Below, one piece after another: positions 31,751-33,798 of a stretch of 64,000 nt of DNA (its first letter is position 1; every line of letters starts with the position of its first letter). The notes beneath the pieces are model-generated. The model did not search any database. It saw only the letters and a list, made by a program, of their open reading frames with translations, and was not told where the DNA came from. Made by a program: the position numbers and the translations under genes. This stretch comes from Parvibaculaceae bacterium Mf 1.05b.01 (GTDB taxonomy: Bacteria; Pseudomonadota; Alphaproteobacteria; Parvibaculales; Parvibaculaceae), in NCBI GenBank assembly GCA_000509225.1, contig BAOK01000001.1, positions 2,012,245-2,076,244 on the forward strand, given 5' to 3'.

Positions 31751-31895
31751 TTAGTTACCTGCCTTCGACCTCTTTGGCTTATTAAATAGATGGTCTATCG
31801 ATCTTAAACCTCTTCATTGTAGGGGAAAAATCAAGCCATCTGCCAGCTTACCTGACTGTTTGTCTCTGCCTGCTCGCCAGTGCACACTGGCTCCC

Positions 31896-32525
31896 ATGAG
31901 CGAGAAGACATCTCTTTTTGGTGGACCGGATTTCAGCCTGGAACGTGCGGCGGGTGCGCCCAAACTCCGCATTGCCGGGATTGATGAAGCAGGCCGCGGT
32001 GCCTGGGCGGGGCCTGTTGTAGCCGCTGCCGTGGTGCTTGACCCGGCCCATATTCCCGAAGGGCTTGACGACAGCAAAAAACTGTCGCCCAAGAAACGCG
32101 ATGCCCTCTATGACGTGATCATGGAACAGGCAGATGTGGGCATTGGCTATGGCAGTGTCGAACAGGTGGAAGTGCGCAATGTGCTGAACGCCACCATGGA
32201 TGCCATGCGTGATGCAGTTGCAGACCTCGCGACACAGCCTGACATCGCACTCGTCGATGGCAATAAGTGTCCTCTGCTTCCCTGCAAGACGCAAGCCGTG
32301 ATCGGTGGTGATGGACGCTCTGTGTCCATCGCGGCAGCCTCCATCATTGCCAAGGTGACCCGGGACCGCTTGATGCATGCGCTCGATAAAGAGTTCCCTG
32401 GCTATGGCTGGGACACCAATGTGGGCTACGGCACGGCTGTGCATAAGTCCGGCATCGAACGGCTGGGTGTTAATGAACATCACCGGCGTTCCTACAAGCC
32501 CATACGCAACATGTTGAGCACTTGA
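31896..32525 (+). CDS. rnhB: Ribonuclease HII
   Basis: Cleaves RNA in RNA-DNA hybrids, in particular single ribonucleotides embedded in DNA. The catalytic acidic residues are in IAGIDEAGRGAWAGPVV (DE, about residues 29-30) and ALVDGNKCPLLPCK, with AASIIAKVTRDRLM and GTAVHKSGI further on. I place the start at the ATG at 31896 (209 aa); the frame continues to a TTG at 31860 but the added residues are not family-like. The stop overlaps the first of the GANTC sites of the ccrM promoter region. RNase HI is encoded at 53160. Confidence 0.9.
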   Translation: MSEKTSLFGGPDFSLERAAGAPKLRIAGIDEAGRGAWAGPVVAAAVVLDPAHIPEGLDDSKKLSPKKRDALYDVIMEQADVGIGYGSVEQVEVRNVLNATMDAMRDAVADLATQPDIALVDGNKCPLLPCKTQAVIGGDGRSVSIAAASIIAKVTRDRLMHALDKEFPGYGWDTNVGYGTAVHKSGIERLGVNEHHRRSYKPIRNMLST

Positions 32526-32647
32526 GTCCAAGACAGACTCTATTTGGTGGGTTGCTCCCTTAAGCCCTTGATTCCTAAAATGATTCACCAGAATTAACTG
32601 GGGGTTAACCATGGAGACTCATGATTCCCCCAACACTTTCATGAATC
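32524..32647. promoter_or_regulatory. ccrM promoter region: seven GANTC sites
   Basis: GANTC occurs at 32524, 32536, 32570, 32582, 32616, 32623 and 32643: seven sites in 124 bases, where about 0.5 is expected by chance (one per 256 bases). GANTC is the sequence that CcrM methylates, so the promoter can report the methylation state of its own locus. A CtrA box (32594-32609) lies among them. In Caulobacter GANTC sites in the ccrM promoter region are known to feed back on its expression. Confidence 0.8.
32594..32609. promoter_or_regulatory. CtrA binding box upstream of ccrM
   Basis: TTAA (32594-32597), seven bases, then TTAAC (32605-32609) matches the full CtrA consensus TTAA-N7-TTAAC without a mismatch. 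CtrA activates ccrM transcription late in the cell cycle in Caulobacter. The match and the gene downstream support the same wiring here. Confidence 0.75.

Positions 32648-32694: not shown

Positions 32695-33798
<1,104 letters not shown>

Follow-up and report, generated by a model that had tools for sequence, protein, structure and literature searches.

The window analysed here is a 64,000-nucleotide stretch of the genome of Parvibaculaceae bacterium Mf 1.05b.01, in which the ribonuclease HII gene is followed on the same strand by ccrM, an adenine methyltransferase gene (Table 1). The product of the latter carries an N6/N4 methyltransferase domain (4.7e-68, Pfam) and a C-terminal RAMA domain (1.3e-19); on these domains the open reading frame is assigned to CcrM, as in the sequence-only reading that preceded this analysis, and its product is predicted to methylate GANTC. 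Judging from conservation, translation appears to start at the GTG at 32698, and the ATG at 32716 is also a possible start. The genome contains a ctrA gene (426 bits with the CtrA profile, curated cut-off 350), and a gcrA gene was found in 27 of 27 good-quality genomes of the family. In both single-contig relatives the distance from parB to ccrM, measured on the coordinates, is about 25% of the genome; assuming that parB lies near the origin, ccrM would sit roughly midway on a replication arm.

Table 1. Genes, GANTC sites and predicted promoter elements between rnhB and ccrM (positions in the window; genus conservation among seven aligned genomes).
Feature	Position	Strand	Basis or remarks
rnhB (ribonuclease HII), upstream neighbour	31860..32525	+	open reading frame; Pfam RNase_HII, 1.8e-41
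GANTC site 1 (GAGTC)	32524..32528	.	private to this genome
GANTC site 2 (GACTC)	32536..32540	.	7/7 genus genomes; TATTTGGTG-like sequence follows
GANTC site 3 (GATTC)	32570..32574	.	5/7 genus genomes
GANTC site 4 (GATTC)	32582..32586	.	7/7 genus genomes; upstream of -35
CtrA box TTAACTGGGGGTTAAC	32594..32609	+	exact match, predicted; overlies -35 region
Predicted -35 hexamer CTGGGG	32598..32603	+	alignment; TTGACC in relatives G003 and G004
GANTC site 5 (GACTC)	32616..32620	.	-16 to -12; position conserved class-wide
Predicted -10 hexamer CATGAT	32620..32625	+	inferred from class-wide TTGAC-N14-GANTC-A---T layout
GANTC site 6 (GATTC)	32623..32627	.	-9 to -5; 5/7 genus genomes
GANTC site 7 (GAATC)	32643..32647	.	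predicted leader; variable in genus, 3/7
ccrM, adenine methyltransferase	32698..33798	+	Pfam N6_N4_Mtase and RAMA; orthologues

Seven GANTC sites lie within 124 bases ahead of ccrM, the first of them overlapping the stop codon of rnhB. A recount reproduced the number and positions given by the sequence-only reading, whereas its expectation of about 0.5 sites per 124 bases is too high, since it presupposes an even base composition. GANTC is depleted about threefold in the window (97 observed versus about 289 expected from dinucleotide shuffles), which lowers the local expectation to 0.19 per 124 bases; under a Poisson model, one given stretch of this length would hold seven sites with a probability of about 1.4e-9. 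A search of the 3.82-Mb genome for chained sites (GANTC-N0-30-GANTC-N0-30-GANTC) returned 41 places, among which the ccrM cluster is the largest and densest chain. The runners-up hold six sites each: one spans 90 bases of the ftsB promoter, the other 86 bases at the mutS 3′ end (G000:C1:107816-107901; L097, about 1017-1102). The density, earlier described as unusually high, is indeed at the top of its own genome, but it is typical of ccrM promoters across the class.

Relative to the predicted promoter elements, the sites occupy particular positions. The two hexamers are separated by a 16-base spacer, transcription is predicted to start at about 32632, and a leader of 66 nt would extend to the GTG. 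The C of site 5 is the first base of the predicted -10 hexamer and site 6 overlaps its 3′ half; with the last base of site 5 at -12 and the first base of site 6 at -9, the -10 element is flanked on both sides by methylatable sites. The -35 hexamer of this genome deviates from TTGAC and is covered by a full TTAA-N7-TTAAC box; this match, announced by the sequence-only reading, was confirmed as exact and is the sole one in the window. Its 5′ base lies at about -38, counted from the predicted start; the activating position of CtrA in Caulobacter is -39 (PMC4287350). The idea of a CtrA site in the ccrM promoter thus gains from a box that appears well placed over the -35 region and is kept in all seven genus genomes. 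Further upstream, at 32536-32552, GACTC is followed by TATTTGGTG, and other genera of the family have a similar GACTC-(G/T)AT-T-GT sequence at the corresponding place; it may represent either a binding site or a further promoter upstream of the first.

Conservation was followed in an alignment of the seven genus genomes with three genomes from other genera of the family. All seven genus genomes share the CtrA box, found also in G010, and sites 2, 4 and 5, while the remaining sites are present in part of it (Table 1); site 1 is unscorable in G005, where a long insertion cuts off the upstream part of the row. The number seven, to which the earlier reading gave weight, is therefore real but includes one private and one patchy site. 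In two relatives the box over the -35 reads TTAATTGACCGTTAAC and contains TTGACC; the same stretch is TTAATTGATCGTTAAC in G010 and TTAATTGACCTGTAAC in the Tepidicaulis-like genomes, and the exact CtrA box at ccrM is limited to the genus and G010. In the G005 locus (L099), whose CcrM is nearly identical, an insertion of about 100 bases lies between the promoter core and ccrM.

To cover the class Alphaproteobacteria, we used 80 named loci of about 10 kb (813 kb) fetched by the CcrM protein, and 100 ccrM upstream regions of 350 nt each from a class-wide genome sample. Within 400 nt upstream of ccrM, at least five GANTC per 124 nt are found in 46 of the 80 named loci, and elsewhere in the same locus such a density is reached in one of the 80; the clustering is hardly matched elsewhere in these loci, and GANTC sites are kept before ccrM orthologues. 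The 100 regions contain 387 GANTC, against an average of about 99 for each of the seven other palindromes that likewise combine one strong base with one weak base; these counts are not independent events because the set, mostly better-scoring orthologues, includes some families twice or more and shares a few members with the named loci. An origin of the cluster by chance or by intergenic base composition might be sought in the fact that GANTC is better tolerated in intergenic than in coding DNA (PMC3973325); considering the control palindromes, the off-target regions and the gap statistics given below, we regard it as hardly credible. The GANTC sites of the ccrM promoter appear instead to be under strong selection, as their conservation suggests.

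The distance between the sites and the promoter elements is more constant than their number. A layout in which TTGAC is followed after 14 bases by GANTC was first suggested by eye on the named loci and then tested on the 100 regions, where the gap is 14 in 45 loci and 15 in six, while any other gap between 6 and 40 occurs in at most six. Shorter gaps of 3, 4 and 5 bases (23, 17 and 13 loci) correspond to a second GANTC within the spacer. In the 80 named loci the gap-14 layout marks 37 ccrM promoters and is found twice, the chance level, in the rest of the 813 kb on both strands. All 38 full-length gap-14 sequences have an A at -11 and a T at -7, neither of which was required by the search. With its TTGAC -35 and 17-base spacer, this arrangement is, from its sequence features, a sigma-70 promoter in which the C of GANTC replaces the T at -12. 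Among the 51 core promoters (gap 14 or 15), GANTC is present in the spacer in 42, no more than 30 nt upstream of the -35 in 45, and just downstream in 6. The best cluster per region, by comparison, ranges from 0 to 9 sites. One conserved register together with so variable a cluster size implies that position counts for more than number; what seems most strongly conserved is the position of the site with respect to the -10 and -35. The same layout supports the earlier identification of the region in the window as the ccrM promoter.

A sequence of the TGACTCA type at -17 to -11 could also be read as such by sigma or by another protein, GANTC being a by-product. The bases around the -12 site are indeed restricted (T or C before it in 43 of 51 promoters, A after it in 50 of 51); however, the middle base at -14 alternates on the coding strand mainly between C and A (26 C, 11 A, 1 T and 0 G in the 38 gap-14 sequences) while GANTC stays. 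Moreover, the extra GANTC sites move between lineages and remain numerous, which one fixed motif fails to explain. We therefore consider this explanation improbable.

Several extensions of the pattern were rejected. Over the class as a whole, ccrM upstream regions show no enrichment of the exact CtrA box, and in the 100 regions the N7 spacing is not commoner than other spacings; a class-wide CtrA box at ccrM was accordingly dismissed, and, the box being lineage-specific, CtrA control would not be the ancestral part of the arrangement. Nor does the ccrM layout define a genome-wide regulon: TTGAC-N14/15-GANTC-A---T occurs 0-4 times per family genome, often only at ccrM, and in the genome studied here loose TTGAC-GANTC pairing does not exceed the reversed-pattern control. 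Helical phasing of GANTC was likewise abandoned, since pairs of sites peak at 9-11 bp, with smaller peaks at about 24 and 34 bp, and show no clean 10.5-bp period; these peaks derive from the fixed sites at the -10, in the spacer and upstream of the -35. A second TTGAC-N14-GANTC-A---T site (TTGACGCG...GGATTCACGCT) recurs in Parvibaculum-like genomes, for example at L292, 1501-1529; it lies downstream of a YihY-like gene and gave no Rfam match.

Methylation-sensitive cell-cycle promoters and the self-regulation of ccrM in Caulobacter are already known, and the original work on the Caulobacter ccrM promoter is reportedly that of Stephens et al. Our window shares with several of these systems the presence of GANTC in the promoter and differs in its details. 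The ccrM promoter of Caulobacter crescentus carries GANTC and is linked to CtrA, which activates it only from the hemimethylated chromosome; it is reported to be coupled to replication and shut down by methylation (PMC2217572). However, the sampled ccrM loci of Caulobacteraceae mostly have 1-3 GANTC and are without the TTGAC-N14-GANTC core, whereas seven sites precede ccrM in the window and two of these overlap the -10. GANTC sites are also clustered before another gene, gcrA of Agrobacterium tumefaciens, where six lie in 250 bp and methylation lowers promoter activity, in E. coli as well (PMC11514494). In our genome only one GANTC, at -200, lies in the 350 nt before gcrA, and gcrA was discarded as a second clustered promoter in the family, where copies in the right orientation mostly have 0-1 sites. 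The ctrA P1 promoter of Caulobacter also has a GANTC and is active when hemimethylated (PMC2217572, PMC4287350), but the site is a single one near -29 and the promoter is activated by GcrA and repressed by CtrA.

We lean slightly towards the view that the ccrM promoter in the window is a CtrA-activated promoter of the sigma-70 type, active while hemimethylated and shut by full methylation, so that the gene would be under delayed negative feedback. Phosphorylated CtrA would bind the box over the weak -35 and recruit RNA polymerase, and the GANTC sites at both sides of the -10 could carry 6-methyladenine. Passage of the replication fork would leave the promoter hemimethylated and permissive; newly made CcrM would then remethylate the cluster, and full methylation would weaken either the contact of sigma with the -10 or its melting, turning the gene off. 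The outcome would be a delayed negative feedback tied to replication. What the sequence itself shows is where the GANTC sites lie, how they are conserved, selection on their positions, and that ctrA and gcrA are encoded; we infer the promoter, its activation by CtrA and its repression by full methylation. For the sign of the methylation effect we rely on the analogy with Caulobacter ccrM and Agrobacterium gcrA. A 6-methyladenine between -16 and -12 would adjoin the bases that sigma reads or melts, and would fit a direct effect on the polymerase. The target sites shared across the class in the promoter core point to an old feedback loop in which ccrM senses its own methylation state. The CcrM sites might also act as a graded sensor, several of them sharpening the response, as the sequence-only reading proposed.

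The main rival, and a serious one, is positive feedback through GcrA, in which the methylated GANTC at -16 to -12, together with those of the spacer, would recruit GcrA and the sigma-70 polymerase, the methylated promoter being the active one. GcrA binds methylated GANTC and domain 2 of sigma (PMC7403470; PMC3667746), its gene accompanies all the family genomes mentioned above, and the strand bias at -14 to C or A (37 of 38) is not needed by CcrM itself. Site 5 fits the GcrA motif YGAKTCK on the other strand, although it is the only one of the seven window sites to match. Our preferred reading is weakened by the deviant -35 of this genome and by cases of activation: CcrM is reported to activate ftsZ and mipZ in Caulobacter (PMC3708114), and GANTC between the -10 and -35 accompanies activation at 40-60 min in that organism (PMC4287350). 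Like ccrM, the GcrA/CcrM-dependent promoters of Caulobacter (mipZ, podJ, tipF, ftsZ) have GANTC inside the promoter; they differ in being activated by methylation, and YGAKTCK is not enriched at ccrM. Indeed, it is found in 39 of 149 core, spacer and upstream sites (26%) versus 26% of background GANTC, so that GcrA motif enrichment across the class promoters was rejected overall. Among the spacer sites alone the proportion is 43%, and the motif itself, defined in Caulobacter and Brevundimonas, may differ elsewhere (PMC7987155). Considering also the reported expression of Caulobacter ccrM from the hemimethylated chromosome under CtrA (PMC2217572), we find GcrA-dependent activation rather unlikely.

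Alternatively, CcrM could itself sit on the clustered sites and block RNA polymerase, as on an operator, methylation being of minor importance. CcrM is reported to open a bubble at GANTC (PMC6787082), and the conserved GANTC abuts the start of polymerase melting; on the other hand, we found in the literature no evidence for lasting CcrM binding, and the Agrobacterium gcrA promoter, studied in E. coli, is weaker when CcrM is active than when a catalytically inactive variant takes its place (PMC11514494). Such a block is therefore quite doubtful, and repression by full methylation remains the reading that we prefer.

For the fixed register between the -35 and GANTC at ccrM we found no report among the open papers covered by the search. 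Brilli 2010 (PMC2877005) counted GANTC before cell-cycle genes, and the conclusion of that comparative study was that such counts do not reveal control. Anchoring on the -35 and -10 rather than counting brings out a fixed register in roughly half of the sampled class. This matters in that CcrM self-limitation is known mainly from Caulobacter, whose relatives are without the ccrM layout described here, and a loose idea of methylation feedback becomes a base-level prediction on one site.

A second case is the ftsB promoter (G000:C2:1250377-1250466; L096, 978-1067; L314), the 90-base runner-up of the chain search. Its layout, TTGACC-N4-GAATC-N7-GATTC, is kept in the genus, in Tepidicaulis-like genomes and in most Parvibaculum-like genomes. 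In a gene-blind search, the pattern TTGAC-N5-GANTC-N7-GANTC occurred once each in 23 of 204 class genomes, while the reversed-pattern control matched in only a few; for 20 of these 23 genomes, an FtsB profile made from family sequences matches an open reading frame close downstream. Tentatively, the -10 would here begin with the five bases of GANTC. It is conceivable, although we would not count on it, that ccrM and ftsB are anciently conserved members of a core-promoter class with no dedicated methylation reader: the CcrM site would belong to the -10, and its exact register would set the effect of methylation. If so, methyltransferase supply and cell division would be coupled directly to the replication state. 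The two promoters differ in register: at ccrM the GANTC ends at -12, whereas at ftsB it would start at about -12 and a second site lies 12 bp upstream.
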